IMG/VR virus record: IMGVR_UViG_3300047550_000441
Coordinates: 1 to 41,629 of that record
Origin: a virus
DNA length: 41,629 nt
Direction: 5' to 3' (one strand)
Shown here: positions 389-41,629 of the stretch, in pieces
Layout: each line of letters starts with the position of its first letter
Position numbering within the stretch: the first letter of the stretch is position 1
Made by a program: the position numbers and the translations under genes
Notes under the pieces: model-generated
What the model saw: only the letters and a program-made list of their open reading frames with translations
The model's database searches: none
Told to the model about the DNA's origin: nothing

Positions 389-616
389 ATGTTTATCAAA
401 TCTGTCAACGAAAATGTCAAGGACGTATTTCTAGGAAACGGCTGGTCCAATCATGTTCGTATGAATCGTGATGGTGATCAGTTCTTAAGAGCATCCGGTA
501 TGCATGTAACACCGGACGTAGTTGCCAAGATCAGCAACCGTATCAAATCATTTGAAGAACAATCTGCTCGCAGGATGTCAGGGATTTACAACAATTCATC
601 CAACAAAGGCAAGTAA
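389..616 (+). CDS. Small protein of unknown function, 75 aa
   Basis: The ATG at 389 is preceded by a TAAGGA Shine-Dalgarno-like sequence about 10 nt upstream. The protein is hydrophilic, with a basic C-terminal half (KISNRIKSFEEQSARR) that could be helical. There is no recognised motif or transmembrane segment. The stop is 3 nt before the next ATG, consistent with one operon. A near copy of the genome-wide palindrome (GTTCTTAAGAGC, 481-492) lies inside the coding sequence, where it encodes Phe-Leu-Arg. Confidence 0.7.
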   Translation: MFIKSVNENVKDVFLGNGWSNHVRMNRDGDQFLRASGMHVTPDVVAKISNRIKSFEEQSARRMSGIYNNSSNKGK

Positions 617-619
617 ACC

Positions 620-1156
620 ATGCTCCAATCTATCTTCAACTTCCTACTCTATATCATCTTTGGTACAATACGCCCTGCAGTACGGCCTGCTGCGTCCAAG
701 TCTGGTGGTGGGCCTCCAATGTTTGCAATCTATTGGAAGAAAGGATGGGGACATAAGGGAGCAGGGGCTATCTGCGACCCTATTACTATCATCATTCTCT
801 CTGAGGCAGTAGTGACAGAGTACGAGAAAGCTCTTAAGAACAAAGTAGATGGTAAGGTTCCTGAGGAGCTAGAAGTTACCATGTTCAAACAGACCGTCAA
901 GATACCTATGGAGTTTATACCATATCTTGTAAGCCTGTTTAAGCAGTTGCTTGAGCCATCCTTTGAGTACATCAAAGGTATGGACAAGGAACGGGATAGC
1001 TTTATCAAGGCTTTAGAGGAGACAGGTGCCGACAAGACCAAGGTAGACAATTGGAAGAATGCCAATCCATCCTACAGTTCAATCCTAATGACTGCCATTG
1101 CTACTGTAAAAGGTAACTCCAATGGCTCATTACCTGATGAAAGGGTACTTCATTGA
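620..1156 (+). CDS. Unknown protein with hydrophobic N-terminus, 178 aa
   Basis: Residues about 3-20 are hydrophobic (IFNFLLYIIFG) and could be a membrane anchor or uncleaved signal. A Gly/Pro-rich stretch follows, then a hydrophobic segment (PITIIILSEAVV, about residues 54-65) and a long charged helical region. The sequence GWGHKGAGAI around residue 42 stands out but matches nothing I can name. The stop at 1154-1156 overlaps the TTG start of the next gene, so the two are probably translationally coupled. A variant palindrome (GCTCTTAAGAAC, 830-841) lies within the gene. Function unknown. Confidence 0.72.
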   Translation: MLQSIFNFLLYIIFGTIRPAVRPAASKSGGGPPMFAIYWKKGWGHKGAGAICDPITIIILSEAVVTEYEKALKNKVDGKVPEELEVTMFKQTVKIPMEFIPYLVSLFKQLLEPSFEYIKGMDKERDSFIKALEETGADKTKVDNWKNANPSYSSILMTAIATVKGNSNGSLPDERVLH

Positions 1157-1392
1157 GAGGTGATCTACGATTAGGCTCCTGCTTTATGTACTTAGAGTGT
1201 AAAGAATTAGTCCACGAAGAAGGGACGCTCGTAGAGAAGATAAGATATGTTAATTTAATAGATCAGACTATTGTTTATCCTTCTCCAGAGAACACTCACT
1301 TTGTGGAGGGTTGTAAATATGCAGGTAACATAAGAGAATCTTTTAATGATATACAACAGGAGATACTAGACAATGCTACATCCTCAACTTAA
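1153..1392 (+). CDS. Small protein of unknown function, 79 aa (TTG start)
   Basis: A TTG at 1153 overlaps the upstream TGA (TTGA) and is preceded by AAAGGG with a 7-nt gap, which favours it over the ATG at 1186. The product is acidic to neutral with three cysteines (SCF, LEC, GCK) and no clear motif. Its 3' end overlaps the start of the CobT-like gene by 20 nt, so ribosomes may be handed on. Function unknown. Confidence 0.6.
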   Translation: MRGDLRLGSCFMYLECKELVHEEGTLVEKIRYVNLIDQTIVYPSPENTHFVEGCKYAGNIRESFNDIQQEILDNATSST

Positions 1393-3187
1393 CAGGTATG
1401 AGATTGAGAGGTACATTGCTGCCACTGCTGCAAGGGCAGACCTTGAGGTAGTGTGGCACAATGATCCTAAGATCCCTCCTGCCACCGATGGCAAGAAGAT
1501 ATTCTTAAGAACATTGGCAGCAGACGCCTCTCAAGAAGATGCAGAGATGCTCATATCCTCTGCAATCCATGAGACAGAGCATGTCAAGCATACTGACTTC
1601 AGTACCTTGAAGAAGTTTGCCTCTGCTAATCCTAGTCATTCTGTGTTGGGAGGTATCAATAACTGCCTTGAAGATGATAACATCGACTATAAGAATGCTC
1701 AGGAATTTGTAGGTGACAGGCAGATACGCAGCAAGGTAACTGCGAAGCTAATCTCTGGTATAGTGGATGGTGTCAAACACCTCTATTCCAAAGGTGAGCC
1801 TGTTCCTAAGAACACTGAGATTACACTGGCAACTATGGCATGGGAGGCTACCAATACCACCGATTACTACCGGGATACTGCAGGTATGGGTCAGCAACTG
1901 TATGACTCTGCCTCTCCTCAGGTCAAGGAATGGGTAGACAAGCTGCGAGCAGGTGACTACCGAGAAAAGTTGCTTGAACTGAGAGACTCCCCTGATGAGG
2001 GTAGATCTATGAAAGTATTCAAGCTGGCACAACGTATCTTCAAAGAAGTCTTTGGGGAAGATCCCGAGAAGGAAGAACAGGAATCCCAACAGAGACAGAA
2101 GCAGGCTCAAGCCGAAGGCGGGGAAGGTAAAGAGGGTGATAAAGAAGGTAAAGGTAAGTCCAAGGGTGGTAAGGGTAAGCTAGGTGAGGGAGAGGGTGAG
2201 TCTGCCAAGGGATCATACTCTATGGATTACAAGACATTCCTTGTAGACCAAGAGAATCGCAGTGATCCTAAGAACAGTGAATCCTCTCTGCATATCAACT
2301 ATGAGGATAGGGATTACGATGGCAACTATGTACCTACCCCTTGGAAGGATACTCTGGTCATCAACTATGTAACAGGCAAGAGTAACTACCCTCGTATCAA
2401 TGCCGTGGCTAACTCTATCTCAAGTAGCAGGTATCGCTTCAAAGGATTGGAGTCTAAACCTGTCGATGGGTTTGCTAACAAGGTACGTAGGCTGCTACAG
2501 ATTCGTAGCAAGGGCAGATGGGAGTATGGCACCAAGAAGGGATCATTGCATACTGCTAACCTCTACAGGGTGGGCATGAAGGATGCAGAGGGTTATAATC
2601 AGCGGGTATTCAAGAGACACATCATCTCTGATGTATTGGATACTGCAGTCATGGTACTGGTAGATGACTCAGGTTCTATGGGTGGCAGCAAGATTGTCCA
2701 TGCTACCGAGGCAGCAATGCACATATCCCATACCCTAGGTAACACCTTGCATATCCCTATTGAGATTGCAGGCTTTACTGAACTAGGTTGCAAGAATACT
2801 ATGTTCCTGTATCGTGCCTTCACCTGTAAGCATCTCAGCAATGACAAGATTGTTGCCCGTATGAGCCATGCAGCTAACTATATGGATCAGAATGCCGATG
2901 CCGATGCTATACTCTGGGGGCATAGCAGGCTGGCACAGCGTAAGGAAAAGCGTAAGCTGATGATTGTCTTGTCAGATGGTAGTCCTGCCAGCAGTAAAGC
3001 AGGTGATTGCATGGGTTATACTAAACGTATTGTCAAAGCCATAGAGGAGACTTCACCTATTGATATTGTAGCAATTGGTATTGAAGATACTAATGTGAAG
3101 AAGATTTACAAACAGCACTATGTAATTCAACAGTCATCAGAGCTTGAGAAGGCTATGCTGACCATCATTGAACGTAAGGTAATCTAG
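1373..3187 (+). CDS. CobT-like protein: HExxH metallopeptidase-like domain plus VWA domain
   Basis: The 604-aa protein has three parts. The N-terminal region carries HETEH at residues 66-70, the zinc-binding HExxH form. A long, highly charged Glu/Lys/Gly linker follows at about residues 230-285. The C-terminal von Willebrand A domain has a MIDAS motif, DDSGS, at 431-435. HExxH plus VWA resembles the metallopeptidase/VWA families near DUF2201, and the charged linker plus VWA resembles CobT of the aerobic cobaltochelatase. The next gene is a MoxR/CobS-like ATPase, the usual partner. By family analogy the pair would remodel a client protein or insert a metal. No CobN is visible, so true cobaltochelatase activity is not shown. 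AGGAG precedes the ATG. Confidence 0.8.
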   Translation: MLHPQLNRYEIERYIAATAARADLEVVWHNDPKIPPATDGKKIFLRTLAADASQEDAEMLISSAIHETEHVKHTDFSTLKKFASANPSHSVLGGINNCLEDDNIDYKNAQEFVGDRQIRSKVTAKLISGIVDGVKHLYSKGEPVPKNTEITLATMAWEATNTTDYYRDTAGMGQQLYDSASPQVKEWVDKLRAGDYREKLLELRDSPDEGRSMKVFKLAQRIFKEVFGEDPEKEEQESQQRQKQAQAEGGEGKEGDKEGKGKSKGGKGKLGEGEGESAKGSYSMDYKTFLVDQENRSDPKNSESSLHINYEDRDYDGNYVPTPWKDTLVINYVTGKSNYPRINAVANSISSSRYRFKGLESKPVDGFANKVRRLLQIRSKGRWEYGTKKGSLHTANLYRVGMKDAEGYNQRVFKRHIISDVLDTAVMVLVDDSGSMGGSKIVHATEAAMHISHTLGNTLHIPIEIAGFTELGCKNTMFLYRAFTCKHLSNDKIVARMSHAANYMDQNADADAILWGHSRLAQRKEKRKLMIVLSDGSPASSKAGDCMGYTKRIVKAIEETSPIDIVAIGIEDTNVKKIYKQHYVIQQSSELEKAMLTIIERKVI

Positions 3188-3189
3188 TT

Positions 3190-3201
3190 GTTCTTAAGAA
3201 C
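3190..3201. repeat. Perfect palindrome GTTCTTAAGAAC, intergenic copy
   Basis: This is the only perfect copy lying fully between genes. It follows the stop of the CobT-like gene and sits about 25 nt before the AAA+ start. Flanking bases extend the dyad to TGTTCTTAAGAACA (3189-3202). Confidence 0.9.
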
Positions 3202-3225: not shown

Positions 3226-4302
3226 ATGGCATTTGATCCAGAAGAAACCTCTAAACTCGTAGAGAATGCAATCCGTGAAATAGCTCGTGCTAATGCAGGT
3301 GGTGCATCTCCTGCTAAGGCAGAGGAGAAGGTACCTCTTGTAGAGACTGCAGCACTACCTGAGAAGAAGGGTAAGCACAGCAAGATGTTCTCAGAAGTCT
3401 TTGGTGTCAAGGTACCTCATGACTTTGCAATCACTGTCTTGGATAAGAAGTCTATCCCGGTAGAGATTGCAGAACTGGTTCCTACCCCTGATCCTACCTA
3501 CAATGTTCAGGTAGAGGAGGCTTATTACCTGCTGCTGGCATGGGAGAACAATGATAAGGTACTGATGTCTGGACCTACAGGTTCAGGCAAGTCCAGTCTT
3601 GTCAAGTACTGTGCAGCCATGACAGGCAGGCCATTCATACGATTGAACATGAATGGGGATATTGAATCCTCCTCAATCTTCGGGCATCTGGTCGTTGAGG
3701 GTGGGGCTACCAAGTGGCAGGCAGGGGCTGCTCAAGAGGCTATCCAGTATGGTGCAGTACTCCTCATTGACGAATGGGAGATCATGCCCCCTGAGGTCGG
3801 TATGGGCTTCCAGAACGTATTGGAGGATGGTGGTTACTTGTTTCTCAAGGAGATGCCGGGAACCAGCAAGGAGAAGATGATTATCCCGCATAAGAACTTC
3901 AGGCTGGTCTATGCAGGTAACACTGTTGGACAAGGTGATGAGATGGGTGCCTTTGCAGGTGTAGCAGTCCAGAACACGGCAACCATTGACAGGTTTCAGA
4001 CTACTATCATCCTCGATTACCTGTCTGTTGAGCATGAGACTCAGGTTCTTAAGAACACTGTTCCTACCCTGACTCCTCAGGCAATCACCAAGATGCTGCA
4101 GTTTGCTAACTTGGTACGTACTGCTCATACCCAAGGTAATGCCTCACTGACAGTCTCTCCCCGTACTCTGATTAATTGGGGCCGTAAGATTGTTATGCTT
4201 GGAGATGTCAAGAAGGCTCTGCAGTATAGCTTCATTAACAAACTTAGTACCTCTGACAAGAAGCTTGTCCTTGAGTTGTATGCTAAAGTATTCGGGAAAT
4301 AA
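3226..4302 (+). CDS. MoxR/CobS-like AAA+ ATPase
   Basis: The 358-aa ATPase has a Walker A motif GPTGSGKS at residues 116-123 and Walker B LLIDEWE with acidic residues D182-E183. The downstream region includes a sensor-like GNTVGQGDE segment, an RFQTT segment and a helical C-terminal lid. The pattern fits the MoxR group, including CobS and NorQ. Members of this group work with a VWA-domain partner, and here the gene directly follows the CobT-like VWA gene. The predicted role is an ATP-driven chaperone for a metalloenzyme or complex. CobS-like genes are known in other phages. AAGGAG lies a few bases before the ATG. A perfect GTTCTTAAGAAC at 4045 lies inside the gene, encoding Val-Leu-Lys-Asn. 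Confidence 0.88.
   Translation: MAFDPEETSKLVENAIREIARANAGGASPAKAEEKVPLVETAALPEKKGKHSKMFSEVFGVKVPHDFAITVLDKKSIPVEIAELVPTPDPTYNVQVEEAYYLLLAWENNDKVLMSGPTGSGKSSLVKYCAAMTGRPFIRLNMNGDIESSSIFGHLVVEGGATKWQAGAAQEAIQYGAVLLIDEWEIMPPEVGMGFQNVLEDGGYLFLKEMPGTSKEKMIIPHKNFRLVYAGNTVGQGDEMGAFAGVAVQNTATIDRFQTTIILDYLSVEHETQVLKNTVPTLTPQAITKMLQFANLVRTAHTQGNASLTVSPRTLINWGRKIVMLGDVKKALQYSFINKLSTSDKKLVLELYAKVFGK
4045..4056. repeat. Perfect palindrome GTTCTTAAGAAC in the AAA+ gene
   Basis: Read in frame as GTT-CTT-AAG-AAC (Val-Leu-Lys-Asn). Confidence 0.9.
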
Positions 4303-4488: not shown

Positions 4489-4824
4489 ATGAAAAATCTA
4501 CTTATTCACCTCAGGAAGTATGATGATAAAGGTCAGGTATCATCCAATGGTGGAGGCACAGTCTACTGTGTAGCTACCGATGATGGGTATATCTGCCGCA
4601 CTGCCTTCTGTAATGAGAAGGATGTATTCTGCAAGAAGGTAGGCAGGGCAATTGTAGAGGGTAGACATAGGATCTATGGCTCCCTTGGAGGGGCTAAGGA
4701 ACTTTCTACCTTGCATGAGGTCAAAGACTACCTGTTTGAGGCTGCGCTCATAGTGGGGGATATACGACCAGAGGAGTTCTTTCAGAAGGTAGTAGACAAG
4801 TTTGGTACAGACTGTAGTTCTTAA
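4489..4824 (+). CDS. Unknown protein, 111 aa
   Basis: The protein is compact and mixed alpha/beta in appearance, starting MKNLLIHLRKYDDKGQ, with cysteines at TVYC, YIC, AFC, VFC and the C-terminal DCSS. No metal-site spacing is obvious. It lies between the ATPase pair and the primase and shares their spacing, so it is probably transcribed with them. Its stop codon falls inside a perfect GTTCTTAAGAAC palindrome (4817-4828) that ends immediately before an ATG of the next gene. Function unknown. Confidence 0.7.
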   Translation: MKNLLIHLRKYDDKGQVSSNGGGTVYCVATDDGYICRTAFCNEKDVFCKKVGRAIVEGRHRIYGSLGGAKELSTLHEVKDYLFEAALIVGDIRPEEFFQKVVDKFGTDCSS

Positions 4825-4828
4825 GAAC
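4817..4828. repeat. Perfect palindrome GTTCTTAAGAAC at a gene junction
   Basis: It contains the TAA stop of the 111-aa gene and abuts the first ATG of the primase gene, so here it is read in a different frame from the Val-Leu-Lys-Asn copies. Confidence 0.9.
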
Positions 4829-5740
4829 ATGAGCCTATTAAATAAGGAAGATATGTTAGGAGAACTCAAAAGACGTAATGACCTGTATCCTGCTCTTAAG
4901 AACTTTGCTAATGGTGATAAGACCCTAGTAAAGACTACATCTAATGGTCAGAAGTCTATATGTCATGAGGATTGCCCTGCAGGAGAGGATACCAAGTATA
5001 GGCTCTACATAAAGGATACAGGTAATACACTGCTTGCTCACTGCTTCAACTGTGGTCAGAGTGGCTGGATGTTCAAGGATATGGATACTCTAGTTCTTAA
5101 TGAGCCTTTAGAAGTACACCAACCTAGAGATAATAGCACTGCAAACTTAACAGCCTCCATCTTAAAATGCACACCTATCTCTGATGTGAAGATCAAGACT
5201 TGGTTGATGCTTCAAGGTATTCAAGATGAAGATATAACTAAGTTAGGTCTGCTACAATCACGGCAAGGAAATCTCTGTGTACCTCTGCATAGTATAGAGC
5301 TTACCAATACAGATGTGCTAGGTTACTTACTTAGATTCTTTGGGGATTCTCAAGGTAAGAGGTATCACCTCAATACTATGGGTCCTAAACATGCAGTATT
5401 TGAGTACCAGTCTACTCCCCATAAAAACGGTGGAGTAACTGTTCTAGTAGAAGATTACTTCTCTGCCTATCGGATCAATAGGGCTACGGGACTAAGGACC
5501 ATTGCGCTCTTAGGAACCTCTGTTAAGGAAGATACTCTTCATTACTTGAGTATGGAAATTAACAACAAGATCATTATCTGGTTAGATAAGGATTTTGCAG
5601 GTATGGAGGCTACAAGTAAGGTAGCTCAGAAGGTTAGGGATGTAGTACCACCTTCAGTTACCTTTTGGTCTATAGAAGAACAGCAAGCCAAGAGCCTGTC
5701 AGATGAACAGATACGAGAGACATTAAAAGCATACCTATAA
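4829..5740 (+). CDS. DNA primase, zinc-binding and TOPRIM domains
   Basis: This 303-aa protein probably makes RNA primers at the phage fork. A zinc-ribbon-like N-terminus has cysteines at 45 and 49 (ICHEDC) and 72 and 75 (HCFNC). The TOPRIM domain follows, with the conserved glutamate in VLVEDY (E208) and the acidic pair in LDKDF (D253, D255). It is smaller than bacterial DnaG and closer to phage primases. The helicase gene starts 9 nt downstream, the usual pairing. Start choice is open: ATG 4829 has no clear ribosome site, while ATG 4853 follows AAGGAA closely. Near copies of the palindrome occur in the gene (4892-4903). Confidence 0.85.
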   Translation: MSLLNKEDMLGELKRRNDLYPALKNFANGDKTLVKTTSNGQKSICHEDCPAGEDTKYRLYIKDTGNTLLAHCFNCGQSGWMFKDMDTLVLNEPLEVHQPRDNSTANLTASILKCTPISDVKIKTWLMLQGIQDEDITKLGLLQSRQGNLCVPLHSIELTNTDVLGYLLRFFGDSQGKRYHLNTMGPKHAVFEYQSTPHKNGGVTVLVEDYFSAYRINRATGLRTIALLGTSVKEDTLHYLSMEINNKIIIWLDKDFAGMEATSKVAQKVRDVVPPSVTFWSIEEQQAKSLSDEQIRETLKAYL

Positions 5741-5749: not shown

Positions 5750-7057
5750 ATGTACGATACACACTTATTAGTACTCCTTAGTAATAAGGAGAAGTATGAG
5801 AGGTTTATTCCTTACATCAAGGAAAAGACTGTCTCACCTGCAACCCTGAAGATCATTCAGGTAATACAGGAGTACTACAAGAGTTATCCCTCTGCTACCA
5901 ACATCAACTGGCAGGACTTAGCCTCTTTCTATATGATGTTCAAGAAGAAGCACTCCAAGCCAGATGAACTCACAGACGTAGCAAATGTTCTTAAGAACGC
6001 AGAGGTACTATCATCAAAGATCCTTGCAGATCCATCCTCTGAGCCTCTACATGAGGATGTAGTTAGCCATTACATCAAGCTAGACTATGCTACCAAGGTG
6101 GCCTCTAGAGCTTTGAACATCGTCAATAACCAAGTTACGGAGGGTACATCTGATGCCTTGGAGTCCATAGGAGACATAATACATGAGTATGAGCGAGAGA
6201 CTAAGAAGGCAGTCAGTAAAGAATCAATATTTGTTGCTCCTTCTGTATCAGCATTGGCTACCTCTGTACTTGCAGGTGGCTTCAACTGGCCTCTTCACGA
6301 ACTGAACATCAGCCTTGGTCCTTTGAGGAAAGGGGACTTCGTTATTGTTGGTGCAAGGCCAGAGACAGGTAAATCTACCTTTGGTGTACAGTGTGCTACA
6401 TGCTTTGCTCAACAGCATGGGGCATCCTCAGATAGACCAATCATCTATGTCCGTAATGAGGAATCAGGTGCAGGGGTAATGTTCAGAAGCTTTCAATCTA
6501 CCTTTGGTATCACTACAGAGGAGATCTCCAAGAACCCTGCCAAGTGGGATGCAGAGTATGTCAAGGTCATAGGAGATAAGCTATTGATTCTTGATGATGA
6601 GGCACATATCAACACTGTCCAACACCTTAAGAGGCTCTTCAGGGAGTTTAACCCCTCCTGTATTATCTTCGATCAGCTAGACAATGTTCATGGCTTCAGT
6701 AACGAGGATAAGGAGCATATGCGTATAGGACAGCTTTACAGGTGGGCTAGAGACTTGGCTAAGGAGTATGGCCCTGTTATAGCCATGACACAGGTAGATG
6801 GCTCTGGGGAGGGTCAGGAGTGGCTTACAATGGCTCAGTTGAGGGAGAGTAAGACTGATAAGCCTGCGGCAGCAGATGCGATCATTACCATTGGCAGATC
6901 TAACAACAAGGCTAAGGAGTACTCTAGGTTCATACACCTACCTAAGAATAAGCTACTAGGGTTGCCGGGAGTAACAGAAGAGGCATTCCGGCATGGCTAC
7001 TTCGAGGTCACTATAAACCCATCCATAGGTAGGTATATATCTACATTGAAGAGGTAA
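5750..7057 (+). CDS. DnaB-like replicative helicase
   Basis: The 435-aa protein has the layout of DnaB/T7-gp4-type helicases without a primase part. A helical N-terminal region (about 1-180) precedes a RecA-like motor with Walker A GARPETGKST at residues 201-210 and Walker B CIIFDQLDN, then a TQVDGSGE segment and an RESK region near the end. It would unwind DNA ahead of the family A polymerase encoded next. AAAGGA precedes the ATG, the primase stop lies 9 nt upstream, and the polymerase follows after one base. A perfect palindrome at 5987 lies in the N-terminal part. Confidence 0.9.
   Translation: MYDTHLLVLLSNKEKYERFIPYIKEKTVSPATLKIIQVIQEYYKSYPSATNINWQDLASFYMMFKKKHSKPDELTDVANVLKNAEVLSSKILADPSSEPLHEDVVSHYIKLDYATKVASRALNIVNNQVTEGTSDALESIGDIIHEYERETKKAVSKESIFVAPSVSALATSVLAGGFNWPLHELNISLGPLRKGDFVIVGARPETGKSTFGVQCATCFAQQHGASSDRPIIYVRNEESGAGVMFRSFQSTFGITTEEISKNPAKWDAEYVKVIGDKLLILDDEAHINTVQHLKRLFREFNPSCIIFDQLDNVHGFSNEDKEHMRIGQLYRWARDLAKEYGPVIAMTQVDGSGEGQEWLTMAQLRESKTDKPAAADAIITIGRSNNKAKEYSRFIHLPKNKLLGLPGVTEEAFRHGYFEVTINPSIGRYISTLKR
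5987..5998. repeat. Perfect palindrome GTTCTTAAGAAC in the helicase gene
   Basis: In frame as Val-Leu-Lys-Asn within the N-terminal helical region. Confidence 0.9.
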
Positions 7058-7058: not shown

Positions 7059-9107
7059 ATGTCAGAAGATAAGAAGCCTTACATCTCTGTAATAGATACA
7101 GAGACATCTGTTAATTGCCCTATAGGTAATAACAAGGCACACCCTAAGTGGCCGGGGAATAACATTGTAGCAATGGGTGTAGCACCTATAGGTGAACCAA
7201 GTAAAACCCCTTTCTCTTGTAACTATAATGCTGCAGGACTACACAAAACTTACTATACTTCTGCTAACATAAAAGGCGAGCAGTACTGCTACATAGGGCA
7301 TAATATACCTTTTGATCTAATGCACTGTAGGAACTTACCGGGGTACGGTAAATACCTTAGAGACGCAAGCAGCAGAGATACTGCCATTGCAGAGTATCTA
7401 CTCTCTGCACAGCAAGAGAGGTTTCCTTCTCTGGATAGGTTAGCAAGCAAGTATGGCTTCCCTATGAAGGATAATGCTATTGCTGCAGCATGGGATGCAG
7501 GAGTCAAGACTGAAGACATACCTTCAGCACAGCTACTAGAGTACCTTAATGGTGATGTAATGACTACCAAAGGTATCTTTGAGAAGCAGGCAATGTTGTT
7601 GAAGGATAAGGGTCTTATACCACTATTCAGATCTCAATGTGAGGCTCAACATGCAGTCACAGAGATGATGTATAATGGTATGCATGTAGATAAGGAGATA
7701 CTACGTAATCTATTGATGATACGGGAGCATGAGCTTAAGATTACTAAGGGTGCCATTATAAGTCTAGTAGGCTATGATATAGACCTTAACTCCCCTAAGC
7801 AGATGTCCCTGCTATTCTTTGGTGGCGAGGAGAAGTACAAGGTATCTGAGCATGATGGACACTCCTACTACAAGAATGGTAAGCCTAAGCATAGGACTGT
7901 AGAGAAGGTTAAGGTACATCCGGGGTTAGGTATAACCATGTCAGAGGTAGGAGCTACCCTAGGCAAGAACGGGTATTACTCTGTAGATGACAATGTTCTT
8001 AAGAACATAGCAACTATGTATTCCGGGCAACCACATGCAATTGCATATAACATGCGTAAGTACCGTGAACTAGAGAAGGAGATAAGTACTTACTTACTAC
8101 CTCTACAAGAATTAATCTTTCCTGATAGCAAGATATATGGTAATATAAATACTACTGCTACAGTTACAGGTAGATACTCTTCTAGTAATCCTAATCTACA
8201 GAATATTACTGACTACTCTCAAGTAAAGTCAGTCTTTGTCTCTAGGTTTGAAGGAGGTAAGATCATTGAGGCAGACTTCAACCAACTAGAGATTGTAGGG
8301 CTTGCCTACCTGTCTCAGGACAAGCAGTTGATTGAAGATATTAACTCAGGTAAGGATATTCATACTGAGCTATACAAGGAAGCCTTCCATAGAGTACCTA
8401 GCAAGGCTCAGCGTAAGCCCTTTAAGTCTGTAACCTTTGCGACCATCTATGGTGCAGGTGTTAACAAGATTGCAGAACAGACAGGGCTTACAGTCTCTGA
8501 GGTTAAAGCCTTTGTTGCAGCCTTCAAGTTTCGGTATGCAGGTGTAGTCAAGTGGTGGGAGACTACCAAGGCTCATGTAGAGGCAGGTAGGTTTGTAACT
8601 GGCTTGAAGGATGAGGAAGGTATCCCTGTAGGGGAGTCTATCCTTGTCTCTGCAGTCACAGGTAGGCAGTTGTACTTCAGAGAGTATCAGAATAAGTATG
8701 CAAGTGGTTGGGGAGTTAGTCTAGGTACTAGAAATACTACGTTCAGCCCATCCCAGATTAAGAATTACCCTGTTCAATCCTTTGCTACAGGGGATGTAGT
8801 ACCTATGGTGTTAGGCAGAGTGTATAGAGCACTAATGAAGAATGAACTTTTACGAGATTCATGTGTCTTAATCAACACTGTTCATGACTCCATAGTTTTA
8901 GATTGCAAGGGAGAGGTAGTACCTAATGCAATTAAGTTGTTGTTGGATGTAATGCCTAGAGTAGGAGATTATCTGGAAGAAGACTTTGGAGTAACTGACT
9001 TTAATGTCAGGGTAGGTGTATCAGTACGAGCAGGTGTCTCTTGGAAAGAGAAGCCTGAAGAAGATGTGACAGCAAGTGATTATTACCTTTACAAAGGATC
9101 TAAATAA
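7059..9107 (+). CDS. Family A DNA polymerase (PolI type) with 3'-5' exonuclease domain
   Basis: The 682-aa protein has the usual phage PolI order. The N-terminal 3'-5' exonuclease domain has IDTET (D13, E15). Polymerase motif A is EADFNQLEI (D406). The O-helix motif spans residues 452-465 from R452 through K456 and F460 to YG. Motif C is VHDS (D610). Phe460 sits at the position of E. coli Phe762, where T7 polymerase has Tyr. No 5'-3' nuclease domain is present, as is normal in phages. It starts one base after the helicase stop and its TAA overlaps the next ATG (TAATG). Confidence 0.95.
   Translation: MSEDKKPYISVIDTETSVNCPIGNNKAHPKWPGNNIVAMGVAPIGEPSKTPFSCNYNAAGLHKTYYTSANIKGEQYCYIGHNIPFDLMHCRNLPGYGKYLRDASSRDTAIAEYLLSAQQERFPSLDRLASKYGFPMKDNAIAAAWDAGVKTEDIPSAQLLEYLNGDVMTTKGIFEKQAMLLKDKGLIPLFRSQCEAQHAVTEMMYNGMHVDKEILRNLLMIREHELKITKGAIISLVGYDIDLNSPKQMSLLFFGGEEKYKVSEHDGHSYYKNGKPKHRTVEKVKVHPGLGITMSEVGATLGKNGYYSVDDNVLKNIATMYSGQPHAIAYNMRKYRELEKEISTYLLPLQELIFPDSKIYGNINTTATVTGRYSSSNPNLQNITDYSQVKSVFVSRFEGGKIIEADFNQLEIVGLAYLSQDKQLIEDINSGKDIHTELYKEAFHRVPSKAQRKPFKSVTFATIYGAGVNKIAEQTGLTVSEVKAFVAAFKFRYAGVVKWWETTKAHVEAGRFVTGLKDEEGIPVGESILVSAVTGRQLYFREYQNKYASGWGVSLGTRNTTFSPSQIKNYPVQSFATGDVVPMVLGRVYRALMKNELLRDSCVLINTVHDSIVLDCKGEVVPNAIKLLLDVMPRVGDYLEEDFGVTDFNVRVGVSVRAGVSWKEKPEEDVTASDYYLYKGSK
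7995..8006. repeat. Perfect palindrome GTTCTTAAGAAC in the polymerase gene
   Basis: Flanking bases extend the perfect dyad to 16 bp (ATGTTCTTAAGAACAT, 7993-8008), the longest copy in the window. Confidence 0.92.
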
Positions 9108-10192: not shown

Positions 10193-10405
10193 ATGTATAA
10201 CGTCTATCGTAACAATCGTGTTCTTAAGAGCATTGGCTTGAACTTTGGTACCTATGATGAAGGTCGATGTGCCTTGCGTAAGTACATCCGTAAGATGGTT
10301 AAGAAAGGTAAGGCAACTAAGTACTCCTTTGGTTTCTGGGATGAAGTTAGCCGTAACCCTACCCGATTCAGCCATCTTGGTTTTGAAGTACGTAAGTCTA
10401 ACTAA
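10193..10405 (+). CDS. Small basic protein of unknown function, 70 aa
   Basis: GAAAGGTAATAT precedes the ATG. The product is strongly basic (KYIRKMVKKGKATK in the centre), which would suit nucleic-acid binding, but no fold is recognised. A near copy of the palindrome (GTTCTTAAGAGC, 10220-10231) encodes Val-Leu-Lys-Ser near the N-terminus. It sits 8 nt before the nuclease gene. Confidence 0.65.
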   Translation: MYNVYRNNRVLKSIGLNFGTYDEGRCALRKYIRKMVKKGKATKYSFGFWDEVSRNPTRFSHLGFEVRKSN

Positions 10406-11376: not shown

Positions 11377-11581
11377 TTACTACAAAGCAGATAAGCCAGA
11401 GTATGAGGTTATCAACATCCTTCAGGCCAAGCTGACTCCTGAGGAGTTTGCAGGGTACCTGAAGGGTAATGTTCTTAAGTACATCTTCAGGGCAGGTAAG
11501 AAGCCTGATAACCCTTTCCTGTCAGACATCAAGAAGGCAGAGCAGTACTTACAATGGTATAAGGAACATAATGCACCATAA
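11369..11581 (+). CDS. DUF3310 family protein, 70 aa (GTG start)
   Basis: The sequence YYKADKPEYEVINILQAKLTPEEFAGYLKGNVLKYIFRAGKK, here broken into its key blocks (EYEVI, FAGYLKGN, KYIFRAGKK), followed by DIKKAEQYLQWY, is typical of the short phage DUF3310 proteins, which have been linked to nucleotide metabolism without a proven reaction. The GTG at 11369 follows GGAG and overlaps the upstream stop as GTGAGTGA. An upstream in-frame codon at 11348 is inside the nuclease gene. The 3' end overlaps the phosphoesterase start by 11 nt. Confidence 0.8.
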   Translation: MSDYYKADKPEYEVINILQAKLTPEEFAGYLKGNVLKYIFRAGKKPDNPFLSDIKKAEQYLQWYKEHNAP

Positions 11582-12555: not shown

Positions 12556-12931
12556 GAAGGGTGTTCTTAAGAACAAGTTAGAGAAGACTTGTTATGAGGA
12601 ACTATGTAAGCTGTGGGGTACAGACAAGGTTAAGTATGAGAAGTATCCCTTTGTCTACACTATCCCTGAGAAGGAGCATGTATATACACCTGACTTTGTT
12701 AACTCTCATACCAATATCATTGTAGAGAGCAAAGGTAGGTTTGTTACTGCAGATAGGCAGAAGATGTTGTTGGTTAAGGCTGCACATCCTAAGTGGCGTA
12801 TCTGTATCTTCTTTACCTCTATGCACAGACCTCTGTATAAAGGTAGTAAGACTACCTACAAGGACTGGTGTGATAAAGCAGGGTTTGAGTGCTCGGATTT
12901 AAAAGCAGGATTACCTAAGGATTGGAAGTGA
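12482..12931 (+). CDS. T7 endonuclease I-like Holliday junction resolvase
   Basis: The 149-aa protein aligns by eye with T7 gp3: a basic start and FRSG-like YRSGRN, then YTPDFV (catalytic Asp), VESKGRF (catalytic Glu and Lys), DRQKMLLVK, and the C-terminal LYKGSKTTY with GLPKDWK. It would cut branched DNA before packaging and may degrade host DNA. An upstream TTG at 12473 lies closer to AAAGGAG, but the ATG at 12482 gives the expected N-terminus. A perfect palindrome at 12563 encodes Val-Leu-Lys-Asn. The stop overlaps the next ATG (TGATG). Confidence 0.9.
   Translation: MKTTLKKIQAKKKPLYRSGRNRGNKKGVLKNKLEKTCYEELCKLWGTDKVKYEKYPFVYTIPEKEHVYTPDFVNSHTNIIVESKGRFVTADRQKMLLVKAAHPKWRICIFFTSMHRPLYKGSKTTYKDWCDKAGFECSDLKAGLPKDWK
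12563..12574. repeat. Perfect palindrome GTTCTTAAGAAC in the endonuclease I gene
   Basis: In frame as Val-Leu-Lys-Asn. Confidence 0.9.
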
Positions 12932-13322: not shown

Positions 13323-15200
13323 ATGGATATACTACAACAGACAGTTTATAAGACACGTTATTCCAGATTCCTACCTGAGGAACACCGTAGGGAGCATTGG
13401 CCTGAAACTGTATCAAGGTACATGACCTACATGCATGACCACTGTAAGAACAATCTAGGTTATACACTTACAGCAGATGAGTACATGATGCTGGATAAGG
13501 CAATGCTCAATCTAGAGGTAGTACCTAGTATGCGAGCAGTAATGACTGCAGGTAAGGCTCTGGATGTTGACCATATTGCCAGCTACAACTGTGCCTACGT
13601 AGAGGTAGATGACCCTGCAGTATTCTCTGAGACTCTCTATATCCTGATGAATGGTACAGGTATAGGGTTCTCATGTGAGCGTAATTGCATCAGCAAGCTA
13701 CCTGAAGTTCCTAAGAACTTTGTTACCTCAGGTACTCAGCAGGTACAGGATAGCAAGATAGGTTGGGCAGAGTCTTACAAGGTACTCATTGATGGTCTAT
13801 ATAATGGTATCCTATATAATGTAGACTACAGCCTTATCCGGCCTGCAGGTGAGAGGCTTAAGACCTTTGGAGGAAGGGCTAGTGGTCCTGAACCCTTGAA
13901 GAGATTGTTTGAGTTCACAATAGAAACCTTTAAGAATGCAGCAGGTAGAAGGCTTACAAGTATCGAAGTTCATGACATCATGTGTGTCATTGGGGAAGTG
14001 GTGGTGGTAGGTGGGGTACGCAGGTCTGCTCTTATTTCTCTTAGTAATCTTAGCGATCTTCGAATGCGGGAAGCTAAAGTAGGTGCATGGTGGGAACAGA
14101 ATAAACACAGGGCTTTAGCTAATAATTCTGTGGTATATACGGAGAAACCGGATGTCGAAACATACTTTGAAGAGTTTTCAAGTCTCGTCAAATCAAAGTC
14201 AGGAGAACGTGGTATCTTTAATCGTGTGGCTGCTAGACGGAAAGCTTCCCAAGACGGAAGACGATCTAAAGAAATTGATTATGGCTGCAACCCATGCTCT
14301 GAGATTATCCTCCGACCAAAGCAATTTTGTAACCTGTCGGAAGTCATATGTCGAAGGGATGACAGTCTTGAGGATCTTCTTAGAAAAGTCTCGGTCGCCA
14401 GTATATTCGGTACTATGCAATCTAGTCTCACCCGATTTAAGTTCCTTAGGCCCGACTGGAAAAGGAACTGTGAAGAAGAAAGACTCCTTGGAGTCAGCCT
14501 TACAGGAATATTTGACTGCAACCTACTCAGGAACGCCGATCCACAAGTCCTAGAGGTACTTAAGGAACATGCAAGGAATGTCAATAAGGAGTGGGCTAGG
14601 AAGCTAGGTATTAACCCTTCTACTGCCATTACCTGTGTGAAGCCTTCAGGTACGGTATCTCAGTTGGCAGACTGTGCCTCAGGGATACACCCTAGGTTTA
14701 GTAAGTTCTACATCCGTAATATCAGGATGGATGATAAGGACCCTGTATGTCAGTTCCTTGCTGCACGAGGAGTACCCTCAGAGCCAGATGTCAACTTCCC
14801 TAGTCAGACAGTCTTTAGCTTCCCTGTCAAAGCTCCCGAAGGGGCACTAACAAGGGATGATATGTCTGCTCTAGACCATCTTAACCAATGGTTGAAATGG
14901 GATCAGGTGTACTGTGAACATAAGCCATCTGTGACTATCTCTGTTCACCAGCATGAGTGGCCTGATGTATTCTCTTGGGTATGGAATAACTTCGATGACA
15001 TATCTGGGGTATCATTCCTGCCTCATACGGAACATAGTTACCAGCAGGCACCTTACATTGCAATAGATGAAGAACAGTACAATGTTCTTAAGAGCAAGAT
15101 GCCTACTGAACTTAATTGGAATGAGTTAGTCGAAGAGTCTGACGTAACAACATCCTCTCAAGAGATGGGTTGCGACTCCGAAAAGTGCGTGATAGGATAG
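13323..15200 (+). CDS. nrdJ: Class II (adenosylcobalamin-dependent) ribonucleotide reductase
   Basis: The 625-aa enzyme makes deoxyribonucleotides using vitamin B12 instead of an NrdB partner. The active-site loop NPCSEI gives N323, thiyl Cys325 and Glu327. The redox pair is Cys90 (YNCAY) and Cys336, 11 residues after Cys325, as in the Lactobacillus enzyme. The tail CDSEKC supplies the reducing cysteines. It is monomer-sized. AAAGGAG precedes the ATG with a long gap. Bases about 14,015-14,540, which include the active-site loop, have about four times the CpG density of the flanks and use CGN arginine codons, suggesting a replaced internal segment. The CobST-like pair lies 9 kb upstream on the same strand. 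Confidence 0.93.
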   Translation: MDILQQTVYKTRYSRFLPEEHRREHWPETVSRYMTYMHDHCKNNLGYTLTADEYMMLDKAMLNLEVVPSMRAVMTAGKALDVDHIASYNCAYVEVDDPAVFSETLYILMNGTGIGFSCERNCISKLPEVPKNFVTSGTQQVQDSKIGWAESYKVLIDGLYNGILYNVDYSLIRPAGERLKTFGGRASGPEPLKRLFEFTIETFKNAAGRRLTSIEVHDIMCVIGEVVVVGGVRRSALISLSNLSDLRMREAKVGAWWEQNKHRALANNSVVYTEKPDVETYFEEFSSLVKSKSGERGIFNRVAARRKASQDGRRSKEIDYGCNPCSEIILRPKQFCNLSEVICRRDDSLEDLLRKVSVASIFGTMQSSLTRFKFLRPDWKRNCEEERLLGVSLTGIFDCNLLRNADPQVLEVLKEHARNVNKEWARKLGINPSTAITCVKPSGTVSQLADCASGIHPRFSKFYIRNIRMDDKDPVCQFLAARGVPSEPDVNFPSQTVFSFPVKAPEGALTRDDMSALDHLNQWLKWDQVYCEHKPSVTISVHQHEWPDVFSWVWNNFDDISGVSFLPHTEHSYQQAPYIAIDEEQYNVLKSKMPTELNWNELVEESDVTTSSQEMGCDSEKCVIG

Positions 15201-30160: not shown

Positions 30161-31090
30161 TTAGGCAGGTTGCAGGTAAGTAGATGCTTCTGGATAGTTC
30201 ATGCTGAAGGCTTGTTCCTTAAGGGCAGCAGCCTCTTTAGCTAGCAACATACGCTCCTTAATCTCCAAACCTGCTTTAGCAGAGAGGAGATAAGCAAGAT
30301 TGACTACCAAAGCAAGGTAGTACTCTTGAGGAAAGTCAGGATTATCTCCTGTAGCATCAAAGTCTTCAAATGTTCTTAAGAACGTAAATTCAATAATTGA
30401 AGTACCTCCATTGAACCTAGGGTACCAATATAGGGCAGGGCTTAGTTGAGGGTCAAAGTAGTACTGGTTAGGCTGAGAGGCAGTAGTACGATTACTAAAG
30501 GCATAATACTGATATTGGGAGATCTGAGTGATCTGCATACCTACCCCTGTAGCAGGGTAGAGTATATTAGCATCTAGAATTCTCTTAGGAGTGCTTATAC
30601 GGGTCGTAGTGACATAAGTATAGACATTAAGACCACTAGCTGCAGCCGTAGGCAAAGCAGTCGTGAGAGTGATTGTAGAGCCTGCAGGAGCACCATTGAT
30701 GGTAGTCCAGTGCATTGATCCAGAGGTCAATTCAATACCTATTGGTTGAGTATCTGCAAAGCCTGTTGCACTGGTTACAGTGATTGTAGAGGCACTAGCT
30801 GCTGCAGCTGCAGATAGGGTAGTCCTAGTATAGGCAGTCACCAGATGGTCAGTACCAAAGGTACCTGAGGAGACTCCTGTAATAGGAAGGGCATATCCCC
30901 TTTTGGTAGCCCAAAGTTGCATACCCTCAGACATCCATGCTTTAACCATCATGTTAAGAAGGGTTGCAGCCTCAGAGTACTGAGTTGCACTAGGAGTATC
31001 ACCTTCGCCAATGTAGTTGCAGTATTGCAGCGCAGCCTTGATTAAGGTATCTCTAGTCAGTGTGAAGTCAATACTACCAGAAGTGCTCAT
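30161..31090 (-). CDS. P22 gp4-like head-completion (tail accessory) protein
   Basis: The 309-aa protein begins with a helical TRDTLIKAALQYCNYIGEGD segment, followed by LNMMVKAWMSEGMQLW, both typical of the gp4/gp11-type ring bound beneath the portal. An inserted Thr/Ala-rich beta region spans about 85-165, and the C-terminal helical part includes PQEYYLALVVNLAYLLS. It would connect portal and tail and is followed by the gp10-like plug. A perfect palindrome at 30372 lies in the gene and is read as Phe-Leu-Arg. Confidence 0.82.
   Translation of the reverse strand: MSTSGSIDFTLTRDTLIKAALQYCNYIGEGDTPSATQYSEAATLLNMMVKAWMSEGMQLWATKRGYALPITGVSSGTFGTDHLVTAYTRTTLSAAAAASASTITVTSATGFADTQPIGIELTSGSMHWTTINGAPAGSTITLTTALPTAAASGLNVYTYVTTTRISTPKRILDANILYPATGVGMQITQISQYQYYAFSNRTTASQPNQYYFDPQLSPALYWYPRFNGGTSIIEFTFLRTFEDFDATGDNPDFPQEYYLALVVNLAYLLSAKAGLEIKERMLLAKEAAALKEQAFSMNYPEASTYLQPA
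30372..30383. repeat. Perfect palindrome GTTCTTAAGAAC in the gp4-like gene
   Basis: On the coding strand it is read in the TTC-TTA-AGA frame (Phe-Leu-Arg), unlike most copies. Confidence 0.9.
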
Positions 31091-31099: not shown

Positions 31100-31351
31100 T
31101 TATTTCATATGTGCATGTTTATCTCTAGCGAAGGATCTGTTATCACTTGCAGACCTTACCCTGAGATTACTTAATGTATTGGAACCACCTTTAGCAAGGG
31201 GTTTAGCATGATCTATGTCTGCCTTGATGTCTCTCTTAAGGGCTTTCTCCATCATCCTATGTGCTTTATTACGCATAGCCCTTTTTCTTTTCTGCTCCTC
31301 AGAACCCTGATAATTCTGGTATTCTGATTTGTAATTACGGGTCTTGCCCAT
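31100..31351 (-). CDS. Small HNH endonuclease
   Basis: The 83-aa protein is very basic in its first 45 residues and carries an HNH motif, IDHAKPLAKGGSN with D47-H48, then LSNLRV and SDNRSF supplying the later Asn and His-like positions. Small HNH nucleases often work with the terminase or are free-standing homing-type enzymes. This one sits between the membrane/coiled-coil gene and the gp4-like gene. The zinc-binding cysteine pairs seen in some HNH proteins are absent. Confidence 0.82.
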   Translation of the reverse strand: MGKTRNYKSEYQNYQGSEEQKRKRAMRNKAHRMMEKALKRDIKADIDHAKPLAKGGSNTLSNLRVRSASDNRSFARDKHAHMK

Positions 31352-32477: not shown

Positions 32478-32775
32478 ACTCTTCTCTTGTTATCATAGGC
32501 CATCCTGCATATGCCATTTTGATTCCATCGGGTAGTTCGTTCTTAAGAACATTGATGTAAGGGCTTGTACCATTCCATTCCGCAGCATACAGGATATTAG
32601 AATAATCTGTAATCTTCTCTCCTATAGTATGCAACTGAGGATCACGCGGAGTTACCGAAAACACCGGCATTCCATCCTTGTCCAATCCGGTCTGCGTGTG
32701 CAGATCGTTGTTGATCTCAATGGCAAGCTGGCGAGGGGCTTTGCGGCGTTCTTCTTTGATTATCGTGTGAATCAT
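32437..32775 (-). CDS. Unknown protein next to the tail fibre, 112 aa (chimeric)
   Basis: The ATG overlaps the fibre stop (ATGA) after GGGAGG. The first 45-50 residues are basic and coded by CpG-rich DNA like the fibre gene; the rest is coded in the phage's usual style and includes a perfect palindrome. The C-terminal half (AAEWNGTSPYINV, PMITREEYEELYPP) resembles the kind of small protein found after fibre genes, which may help fibre folding or attachment. No family is certain. The gene looks like the site of a recombination boundary. Confidence 0.65.
   Translation of the reverse strand: MIHTIIKEERRKAPRQLAIEINNDLHTQTGLDKDGMPVFSVTPRDPQLHTIGEKITDYSNILYAAEWNGTSPYINVLKNELPDGIKMAYAGWPMITREEYEELYPPADNNLS
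32539..32550. repeat. Perfect palindrome GTTCTTAAGAAC beside the foreign-looking fibre block
   Basis: It lies about 100 nt outside the CpG-rich segment, in the native-looking half of the 112-aa gene. Confidence 0.9.
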
Positions 32776-37043: not shown

Positions 37044-37823
37044 TTAAATCTCCTTAGTTGTTGTCGCAGAGCCGTTTGGAGAAGAACGAAGAAGTTGACT
37101 TTGTTTATCTTCGGCCTGCTTGATAAAATCAGGAAAGAATCCTGAGAACTTGGCATCATAATCTTTATTACCAATATGGACTAGATCAATGCCGGGATCT
37201 AACCATACTTCACCACCGAATTCTGTTACCCATCTATGGAGAAAGCATACATCTTCTCCGTAGAAGTCAGTCCCTACTACTTGATTGTAGAAGTACTGAG
37301 TAATGATGTCCTCATCTACAGAGAACTTCTTGCTATTGGCTTCCATTCTTAAGAACACTGACCTATCTATAATCATGAATCCTGCACCACAACCTGTGAT
37401 TGAGAGTAGACCATATTCATTAATTACCAACTTACCTTCGTCTGTATAGACAGGGTTGATAAAGAACTTGGTAGGCTCTTTCTTAGCAGGATAGGTACCA
37501 CAGACTATAGGGTACTTACTTGAGAATACTAACAACCTTTCTAGATCTTCCCATTTGAACTTGATGTCAGAATCAAGGAAGACTAACTTCTGAGCAGTTG
37601 AGTCCTTAAGGAACTTGGCTACTAACCTATTCCTGCTATAGTCTACTAGGGCGTTGCCCTTCTCATAGATTACTGCAGACTTAACTCCCATATTGTTTAA
37701 CTTCATACCTGCATGATAAACTGCAGCTAACTGCTCTACTACTACTTTCCCATCATATGCCGGGATTGCAAAGGCTATACCGCCTAATGTACTGAGATCT
37801 ACCTCTAGTGAGCTATCGCTCAT
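37044..37823 (-). CDS. GT-A fold glycosyltransferase (family 2-like)
   Basis: The 259-aa enzyme has the nucleotide-sugar-binding pattern of GT-A enzymes: an N-terminal beta strand (IAFAIPAYDG), NALVDYSRNRLV, the metal-binding DSD at 84-86 in VFLDSDIKF, a GCGAGFMIIDR loop, the acidic GEDVCFLHRW and a late LDPGIDLVHIGN histidine (H216). It transfers sugar from a nucleotide donor; the acceptor is unknown. AAGGAT precedes the ATG. It sits right after the major capsid gene and before structural genes, so a virion protein is a likely acceptor. Confidence 0.85.
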   Translation of the reverse strand: MSDSSLEVDLSTLGGIAFAIPAYDGKVVVEQLAAVYHAGMKLNNMGVKSAVIYEKGNALVDYSRNRLVAKFLKDSTAQKLVFLDSDIKFKWEDLERLLVFSSKYPIVCGTYPAKKEPTKFFINPVYTDEGKLVINEYGLLSITGCGAGFMIIDRSVFLRMEANSKKFSVDEDIITQYFYNQVVGTDFYGEDVCFLHRWVTEFGGEVWLDPGIDLVHIGNKDYDAKFSGFFPDFIKQAEDKQSQLLRSSPNGSATTTKEI

Positions 37824-39976: not shown

Positions 39977-39978
39977 TC

Positions 39979-40839
39979 TTAGCCCCTTGCTAACTGAACT
40001 GCATTAATCTTCTTGTAATCCTCTACATACTTATCCTCAGTGATATGACCACCTTTGACTAGAGTACGCATAATATTACGTTCTGTTTCTGACATGCTAT
40101 TGATGATGGCAGAATTTGCAGTCTTCTTAGAAGGGCTACCACGAGTACCTGAATCAAGTACTGCAGAGGGCCTTTCTGTGCGAGCAACTGACTTACTGCC
40201 TACACCAAACTTCTCTTTGACTTCTCGTGCAACATAGGCAAGAACCTTACTAGGTGCAATACCGGGGTTATCCTGTGCATAGGCTTGACCTATTGCATCT
40301 GCATAACCTCGCATACCGGCATTAGTGGCATACCAAGGGTTATCATCTACCCATGCTGCAAACTCTGGAGGTGCTTGCACACCTTGATCCAATTCTTGAG
40401 ACTTGGCATTTGCATTAATCTCTGCAATTGCATCCTTCTTCTCAAGGATCTTCTCATCAATCTCTACTACACGTTGGGCATCGTTGTTCTCAAGAGCAAG
40501 GATCTTCTCCCTACGAAGTTCCTGCATCTCTTCACGAGCCTTAGCTTGAGAGAGTTTAATGTTGTGTTCCTTCATTGCCTGAAGGACTCGACGCATCTCT
40601 TTCTGCTCTTTGTTGGCTTGGCTGATCTTCTTAAGGAGTTCGCCTCGGTCCAAGAAGGACCTTGCATCACGCCATTCATCAGGATCACCAGTCCAGTGTT
40701 CTTTAGGTTTCCAACCCTCTGCTGCAGCTTTTTGTTCTACAGGGGAGAGTTCTACTTCTTCAGTAGTACCACTATCTGCAGTATTATCTGCCTCAGTTGA
40801 GGTCAGATCTACTACTACTTCTTCTGGGGTGTCTGCCAC
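39979..40839 (-). CDS. Scaffolding protein
   Basis: The 286-aa protein is acidic at the start (EEVVVDLTSTEADN), has an EGWKPKEHWTGDPDEWRDARSFLDRG block that is very typical of podophage scaffolds, then a long coiled coil (about 65-135) rich in Glu, Lys and Gln, and a helical C-terminal end with a basic patch. It guides capsid assembly and leaves the finished head. Its location between portal and major capsid genes is the usual one. Confidence 0.85.
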   Translation of the reverse strand: MADTPEEVVVDLTSTEADNTADSGTTEEVELSPVEQKAAAEGWKPKEHWTGDPDEWRDARSFLDRGELLKKISQANKEQKEMRRVLQAMKEHNIKLSQAKAREEMQELRREKILALENNDAQRVVEIDEKILEKKDAIAEINANAKSQELDQGVQAPPEFAAWVDDNPWYATNAGMRGYADAIGQAYAQDNPGIAPSKVLAYVAREVKEKFGVGSKSVARTERPSAVLDSGTRGSPSKKTANSAIINSMSETERNIMRTLVKGGHITEDKYVEDYKKINAVQLARG

Positions 40840-40843
40840 TTTG

Positions 40844-41188: not shown

Positions 41189-41191
41189 TTA

Positions 41192-41404
41192 TTACTCCTC
41201 TTGTTCCAGACTTTCTGGTTTCCAACTAAGAATCTCCCTAAAACAGGAGATAAGTGCTACCATATGTAGATCCAACTTAGAATCTGAACCTGCACTGGTA
41301 ACTAAAATCTCTTTTAAGTCTTCCTCACTAGCTTTTAAGTAGGAATGAAGCTCTTTAGTGACTTCATTGTGCTGCCATTCTTTGAAATCTTCTTCAGAAA
41401 TCAT
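41192..41404 (-). CDS. Small acidic protein of unknown function, 70 aa
   Basis: AAGGGA lies about 7 nt before the ATG. The protein is acidic and helical (SEEDFKEWQHNEVTKELHSYLKASEEDLKEIL). It is placed between the portal end and the co-chaperonin gene, like many small unknown genes near the portal of podophages. No motif is recognised. Confidence 0.65.
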   Translation of the reverse strand: MISEEDFKEWQHNEVTKELHSYLKASEEDLKEILVTSAGSDSKLDLHMVALISCFREILSWKPESLEQEE

Positions 41405-41467
41405 AAATCCCTTAGGTTTTGGTTAGTAACTGCTTACTTATATTGCCTTAGACTCGAAATTCTTTAT

Positions 41468-41629
41468 TTAGTTCCCTTGAGGTTTGTTCTTAAGAGCATC
41501 TGTCTGCCTAGCCTGAGCTAATTTAGCCTGATGAAGCTGCTCTGCATGGGTTAATTTCTGCCTGTGGGCATCATCTTGGGCCTTAAGGTTCATTGCTGCC
41601 TCAAGAGCCTTGATCTTTGAGTCAAGAAG
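41468..41629 (-). CDS. Probable portal protein, C-terminal end only
   Basis: The last 53 codons of a leftward gene enter from the right edge and stop at TAA 41468-41470. The residues are Ala, Gln, Lys and His-rich and helical (KALEAAMNLKAQDDAHRQK, EQLHQAKLAQARQTD), as seen in the C-terminal tails of many podophage portal proteins. Its place just before co-chaperonin, scaffold and capsid genes supports this. A palindrome variant (GTTCTTAAGAGC, 41486-41497) lies near the end. The main part of the gene is outside the window. Confidence 0.55.
   Translation of the reverse strand, partial: LLDSKIKALEAAMNLKAQDDAHRQKLTHAEQLHQAKLAQARQTDALKNKPQGN

Follow-up and report, generated by a model that had tools for sequence, protein, structure and literature searches.

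The window analysed here, i.e. the whole 41.6-kb stretch of an uncultured virus record (IMGVR_UViG_3300047550_000441), is laid out as two converging arms, along which a short palindrome, GTTCTTAAGAAC, is dispersed. The plus-strand arm (about 1-16.4 kb) encodes CobT/CobS-like proteins, a primase, a DnaB-like helicase, a family A DNA polymerase, a Cas4-type exonuclease, a phosphoesterase, an endonuclease I and a ribonucleotide reductase (RNR), and resembles the replication arm of Zobellviridae-type phages; the minus-strand arm carries the virion and lysis genes. The copies of this palindrome, already noticed in a preliminary description of the sequence, probably constitute a selected genome-wide array of putative sites at which one dimeric protein would bind DNA in a sequence-specific manner.

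GTTCTTAAGAAC occurs eight times in the window and TCTTAAGA 23 times. At 11 or more matches out of 12 to GTTCTTAAGAAC, 25 sites are present when an order-3 Markov model predicts 0.25, and site counts at nine matches or fewer equal the Markov expectation; the distribution is thus two-peaked, as a real motif would give. The sites reported in the preliminary description, namely eight perfect copies, 11 with one change and three others, all lie where it had placed them. While the palindrome is real, its definition was too narrow, the inner positions being a pyrimidine (Y) and a purine (R): the broader unit, GYTCYTARGARC, which includes CTAA and TTAG in the window, has 22 exact copies and eight sites with one mismatch, and a CTAG centre is seen in GC-richer relatives of the window phage. 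The statement that many copies extend to TGTTCTTAAGAACA did not hold, two-sided extension being found in only three of the eight perfect copies. Codon use, as had been argued, does not explain the array: in protein-preserving shuffles of synonymous codons, GYTCYTARGARC occurred 2.7 times on average (maximum 5) vs. 22 in the window, and GTTCTTAAGAAC 1.2-1.4 times vs. 8. When the base of the next codon was preserved as well, a near equivalent of the codon-pair comparison proposed at the time, the mean for GYTCYTARGARC rose to 4.1 (maximum 9), which still leaves the excess.

Related records are referred to below by handles, G1, G3 and G7 being records G001, G003 and G007, and most of them are metagenomic fragments. 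At 10 or more matches out of 12, the window sites fall in reading frame 0 (21 sites, V/A-L/P-K-N/S) and frame 2 (seven sites, F-L-R) but never in frame 1, and the coding sites pooled over nine phages are distributed likewise (123/0/42 for frames 0/1/2); frame 1 is empty because the motif would introduce an in-frame TAA or TAG there. Over these nine phages, 165 sites lie inside open reading frames (ORFs) and 36 outside. As first described, the sites thus occur in different frames, over a stop codon (4817) and between genes (3190).

From the left end of the window, sites are located at 481..492 (GTTCTTAAGAGC), 830..841 (GCTCTTAAGAAC), 1501..1512 (ATTCTTAAGAAC, one mismatch to GYTCYTARGARC), 1802..1813 (GTTCCTAAGAAC, absent from the preliminary description) and 2264..2275 (GATCCTAAGAAC, a weaker one-mismatch site). 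Perfect copies follow in the intergenic space separating the CobT-like and CobS-like genes (3190..3201), inside the CobS-like gene (4045..4056) and over the TAA stop of ORF 4489-4824, within the start region of the primase ORF (4817..4828). Two primase sites come next (4892..4903, GCTCTTAAGAAC; 5506..5517, GCTCTTAGGAAC), the second in alignment column 261.2 common to sites of G429, G430, G447 and L413, then a perfect site in the DnaB-like helicase (5987..5998) and another in the DNA polymerase (7995..8006), whose alignment column, 353.0, is common to weaker sites of G1 and G435. A GTTCTTAAGAGC site (10220..10231) falls within the gene of a 70-amino-acid (70-aa) protein, and GTTCTTAAGTAC, with one mismatch, overlaps the phosphoesterase start (11471..11482). 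The perfect site of the endonuclease I-like gene (12563..12574), the two RNR sites (13707..13718, GTTCCTAAGAAC; 15084..15095, GTTCTTAAGAGC) and a GCTCTTAAGAAC site at 17335..17346 are all conserved in the relative L367. The remainder of the array comprises two perfect sites (30372..30383 and 32539..32550), a GCTCTTAAGAAC site (20869..20880), four GTTCTTAAGAGC sites (22311..22322, 22977..22988, 25546..25557 and 41486..41497), the one-mismatch sites TTTCTTAAGAAC (27621..27632) and ATTCTTAAGAAC (37345..37356), and weaker one-mismatch sites at 19788..19799 (GTACTTAAGAGC), 31294..31305 (one mismatch to GYTCYTARGARC) and 40486..40497 (GTTCTCAAGAGC).

A second palindrome, CCTGCAGG, is also over-represented in the window, with 11 copies vs. 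about one expected under a first-order model, all within the 71 CTGCAG present (copies e.g. at 4976, 13842, 17459, 21752, 22741, 23707, 25089, 25847, 26621, 26987 and 30681).

Conservation and distribution of the sites

Selection acts on the DNA itself, not on the encoded peptide. When site positions were compared in related phages, as the preliminary description had proposed, retention was well above background, even at 68.6-72.5% identity. Between G1 and G435 (89.1% identity), all 25 sites are retained, when random 12-mers are retained at 39-47%; between G7 and G447 (72.5% identity), 17 of 18 sites are retained over a background of 5.6-9.3%. Retention also reaches 8/9 for G7 vs. G430 (69.7% identity), 4/5 for G7 vs. 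G3 (68.6% identity) and 4/4 for the window vs. L367 (90.8% identity). The differences among retained sites are mainly at the Y/R positions 2, 5, 8 and 11, and in frame 0 those at positions 5 and 8 are Leu/Pro and Lys/Arg exchanges, the DNA thus being retained though the peptide changes. For the VPKN peptide of the helicase, the codons GTT CCT AAG AAC are used by all seven motif-bearing and by only one of the 23 motif-free phages that have this peptide (Fisher 4e-6, or 1.5e-5 minus one near copy, kinship being ignored); the other motif-free phages choose other codons. Some sites also lie in alignment columns that deep lineages have in common, e.g. column 353 of the polymerase and columns 37 and 261 of the primase.

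Exact copies of GYTCYTARGARC number 26 in 45.8 kb (G1), 13 in 25.8 kb (G3), 31 in 46.8 kb (G7, probably complete given its 127-bp terminal repeat), 14 in 25.9 kb (G429), 28 in 43.8 kb (G430), 17 in 42.4 kb (G431), 26 in 44.9 kb (G435), 12 in 36.8 kb (G445) and 24 in 30.2 kb (G447), to which several fragments are to be added. The pooled consensus is a 14-bp palindrome, TGYTC-YTAR-GARCA, where the bases at positions 1, 3, 4 and 6, and at the positions paired with them in the dyad, do not vary, by the counting definition used. Its centre is mostly TTAA in phages of 42-44% GC and mostly CTAG in the phage of 56% GC, the remainder of the motif being constant, and T is the majority base at position -1 in all phages examined.

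In all, the window phage and about a dozen distant relatives have 13-36 copies each of the 14-bp palindrome. The iteration (12-31 exact copies) recurs in four or more lineages that are deeply separated and have a common Zobellviridae-like replication module. In G1 and G7, Zobellviridae genes are found in both the replication and the structural modules, the G7 terminase being 68% identical to that of the Zobellviridae phage MEP401 and its capsid about 50% to that of SIO1. The window capsid is nearest to that of Alcaligenes phage QDWS535 (59%), in a module unrelated to Zobellviridae-type capsids and to those of G1 and G7; the motif therefore persists across unlinked structural modules. The window itself is a mosaic of a Zobellviridae-like replication arm (1-16.4 kb) and a virion arm (16.4-41.6 kb) with a capsid of another family. 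Among the gene contents of these relatives, a sigma-70 region 2 protein is encoded in the G1 lineage (L245:10017-10499), and tRNA-Asn, tRNA-Thr and tRNA-Met genes are predicted in G7.

No copy of the motif was present in 11 long relatives (G008, G009, G019-G021, MEP401, MEP402, MW202697, ICBM1, ICP2 and QDWS535), and it is nearly absent elsewhere, with one copy in 411 kb of 39 polymerase relatives and three in 928 kb of 80 capsid relatives. A single origin of the trait was considered and rejected, the helicase tree requiring four changes, at least two of which are forced by supported branches; in this tree, G431 is placed with ICP2, which lacks the motif, and the window with contigs that lack it too, on long branches that make exact placement unsure.

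Turning to bacteria, no genome among 398 Pseudomonadota had more than three copies of the motif, and the 14-bp form reached a maximum of one in 349 Burkholderiales and two in 195 Verrucomicrobiota, bearing in mind that the sampled groups may not be that of the host. A genome-wide scan for the 16-mer ATGTTCTTAAGAACAT returned scattered matches, a good many of them from CPR and Clostridia, and among the matches listed no genome was dense. A Phycisphaeraceae metagenome-assembled genome (MAG), PL23b_bin.82 (G026), which was found via a motif match, contains 16 copies of GTTCTTAAGAAC, all TTAA-centred and some closely paired, and looks like a case of a separate regulon. Copies of GTTCTTAAGAAC paired at a distance of about 295-350 bp were also observed in L307, L331, L348, L362 and L366, which include CPR/Patescibacteria and MAGs, and are perhaps the operator pair of a regulator. 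Regarding the hosts of the phages, CTGCAG is present 71 times in the window and 32 times in G1 but is absent from G7 and G430, and zero occurrence over 44-47 kb is typical of PstI-type site avoidance; the contrast suggests no single common host, and judging from such restriction-site avoidance in the sequences, the motif-bearing phages may differ in host.

Spacing, polarity and the putative partner

Within arms, the sites are spaced more regularly than uniform random placement would give, with P = 0.009 in the window, 0.0012 in G435 and 0.00025 (the floor of the test) in G1, G7, G430, G431 and G3, where arm borders were set by eye close to the coding-strand change and the tests are not all independent, lineages sharing inherited sites and relatives being statistically non-independent. 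The regularity is weaker or lost in some phages when whole genomes are tested. With one mismatch allowed, one site is encountered per 0.8-1.5 kb of early arm vs. per 1.8-4.4 kb of late arm in six phages; the early arm is thus denser in six of the seven phages, G3 presenting no difference between arms.

The suggestion of the preliminary description that a dimeric protein of the phage or its host binds the sites is well supported by the palindromic symmetry, the DNA-level conservation at fixed positions and the even spacing. Such a protein would recognise the half-site 5'-RGARCA-3', twice in the full 14-bp site TGYTC-YTAR-GARCA, and its anchoring, loading or roadblock at the sites would organise the DNA, or shield it, while infection proceeds, with an array usually denser in the early/replication arm. 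Since a local role needs an evenly spaced array, and since positions and spacing matter, the protein would act locally along the whole phage chromosome, probably not by decoy titration. The proposed roles of organising, silencing or marking the DNA could not be separated, and no binder was found. The constant sequence preference in at least four deep lineages, together with the lack of any gene whose distribution matches that of the motif exactly, favours a partner that evolves slowly, i.e. a conserved host protein or a protein belonging to the shared replication module, over a fast-evolving immunity repressor, which such constancy across deep divergence makes less likely.

Regarding candidate partners, only a primase, a helicase, a polymerase, a protein of about 180 aa, which is possibly single-strand-binding-like, and an exonuclease are present in all six long motif-bearing phages, each of them being also present in motif-free phages. 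The best, though weak, candidate for the binder is a 70-aa basic protein encoded on the plus strand at 10193..10405, whose family occurs in five of the six long motif-bearing phages. An early protein family of 162-198 aa (G7, G430, G431 and G435) was rejected, as it was not found in the window and is marginal in motif-free phages. The tyrosine integrase (L373:15480-16490; homologues in G447, G429, G430 and G3) was discarded as a binder for being confined to the G7 lineage; it suggests that this lineage of Zobellviridae-like phages may be temperate, and a search for it in the 398 Pseudomonadota genomes at E 1e-40 returned no match.

Several observations weigh against a dimeric binder acting locally. 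No binding protein was found, and no gene family is present in 6/6 long motif-bearing phages and 0/11 motif-free ones. The 70-aa family is lacking in G431, has weak homologues in the motif-free L028, L035 and L011, and its AlphaFold model has a pLDDT of 74 with no PDB match. The even spacing fits a local role but leaves that role unnamed. In addition, the imperfect half-site in G1 (loci L244-L246) is polarised, GCTC..GAAC occurring 14 times vs. once for GTTC..GAGC (binomial P 0.001), which a symmetric dimer does not predict. This polarity is tied to the absolute strand, independently of the gene strand, and G435 and G445 concur; base skews flip sign between the arms and so do not account for it, and the direction of replication or packaging is a possible cause. 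In the window, the degenerate half is about equally on the left and the right (5 vs. 7).

With these reservations, the sites could well, if tentatively, represent an undescribed class of phage chromosome sites, evenly spaced, position-conserved and mostly intragenic, for a predicted binder with local action. Small double-stranded DNA phages are usually viewed without chromosome architecture besides promoters, origins and packaging sites. If the proposal is true, small phages that mostly look lytic have their DNA organised, protected or partitioned by a locally acting protein, and the site is one and the same in several deep lineages and structural modules. An array of about 20-35 selected sites, spaced 1-2 kb apart and able to override protein sequence, would imply a genome-wide function, of which we know of no description in such phages; a literature search on the 12-mer retrieved a sole occurrence, in an unrelated mouse paper. 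The 14-bp site offers a direct bait for the protein, the array marks synonymous positions under strong non-coding selection, and a partner encoded by the host would gain in likelihood if phages lacking this replication module proved dense in TGYTCYTARGARCA.

Alternative explanations

Stoperator-like silencing of the kind seen in Cluster A mycobacteriophages, where a phage repressor on all sites would block transcription genome-wide during dormancy or lysogeny, is unlikely. It would be consistent with the similar copy number (more than twenty) and genome-wide spread, with the denser early arm in six of seven phages and with the integrase of the G7 lineage, by which some members may be temperate. 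However, neither an integrase nor a repressor was recognised in the ORFs scanned of the window, G1 and G431, a non-exhaustive scan with small unassigned ORFs left. Moreover, stoperators are asymmetric, oriented with transcription and located in promoters or short intergenic spaces, whereas the phage sites have a dyad consensus and are mostly intragenic (165 vs. 36), and the G1 bias follows the absolute strand. Stoperator motifs also vary between related phages, whereas TGYTC-YTAR-GARCA is constant across deep lineages.

A Chi-like or nuclease-barrier role, in which spaced marks would promote phage DNA recombination or repair and halt or divert a nuclease-helicase of either phage or host, appears distinctly unlikely. 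Although even spacing at about 1-2 kb suits a barrier and a Cas4-type exonuclease family is encoded by every long motif-bearing phage, motif-free relatives have the same exonuclease. Known Chi sites lack symmetry and abound in the host genome, unlike the motif, which is not iterated in the sampled bacterial genomes.

It is very unlikely that the array serves as a decoy, its many operators titrating a host transcription factor and thereby derepressing its regulon, because a decoy requires neither even spacing nor conserved positions, yet both are seen. The 14-bp dyad does resemble an ordinary operator, and a host regulon with few sites would account for the chromosomal rarity. As a lead only, the Verrucomicrobia LexA motif, TGTTC-N4-GAACA, has halves equal to those of the phage dyad; the 195 Verrucomicrobiota genomes hold at most two sites each and show no enrichment for the YTAR form.

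Mimicry of a HIP1-like element, where the motif would iterate in the host chromosome and the phages drift to match it, is highly improbable. The resemblance suggested in the preliminary description stands as far as an iterated palindrome with a conserved core is concerned, but no sampled group has genomes iterating the motif: host-chromosome iteration was rejected on at most three copies in each of about 940 sampled genomes from three taxonomic groups, including the Pseudomonadota and Burkholderiales maxima given above, and the CTGCAG contrast suggests motif-bearing phages without one common host.

Finally, practically negligible weight can be given to an mRNA hairpin or to a preference for certain codons or peptides (V-L/P-K-N) that would yield the motif as a by-product, for although frame 0 holds 123 of the 165 coding sites, protein-preserving shuffles do not reproduce the excess, frame-2 and non-coding copies are present, motif-free phages encode the same VPKN peptide with other codons, and the sites are indeed poor RNA hairpins, C-A mismatches at positions 2/11 being as common as U-G wobbles (20 vs. 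16) with no compensatory pairing.

Comparison with known systems

The operators and stoperators of Cluster A mycobacteriophages are like the phage array in their more than twenty short dispersed copies. They differ in being 13-bp, asymmetric, monomer-bound and oriented with transcription, where the phage sites are palindromic and mostly intragenic; neither a repressor nor an integrase is recognised in three of the four motif lineages. HIP1 of cyanobacteria is likewise an iterated palindrome in coding and non-coding DNA, but is host-chromosomal, whereas the phage motif is phage-specific in our sample. SlmA/MatP-type sites are, like the phage array, dispersed palindromes for an organising protein; they have other sequences than the phage motif, are host-chromosomal and are far sparser.

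As for the ParB family, the phage ORFs that were scanned included no recognisable homologue of ParB, Noc or KorB. The outer TGTT/AACA letters of parS, TGTTNCACGTGAAACA, match the phage motif, which is a lead only: parS is 16 bp long with a CACGTG centre, whereas the phage site is 14 bp long with a YTAR centre. Noc sites are scattered over the chromosome, and KorB slides as far as 1.5 kb away from its own (OB of RK2). ParB-family proteins combine sequence specificity with local action along the DNA, as proposed here for the phage sites.

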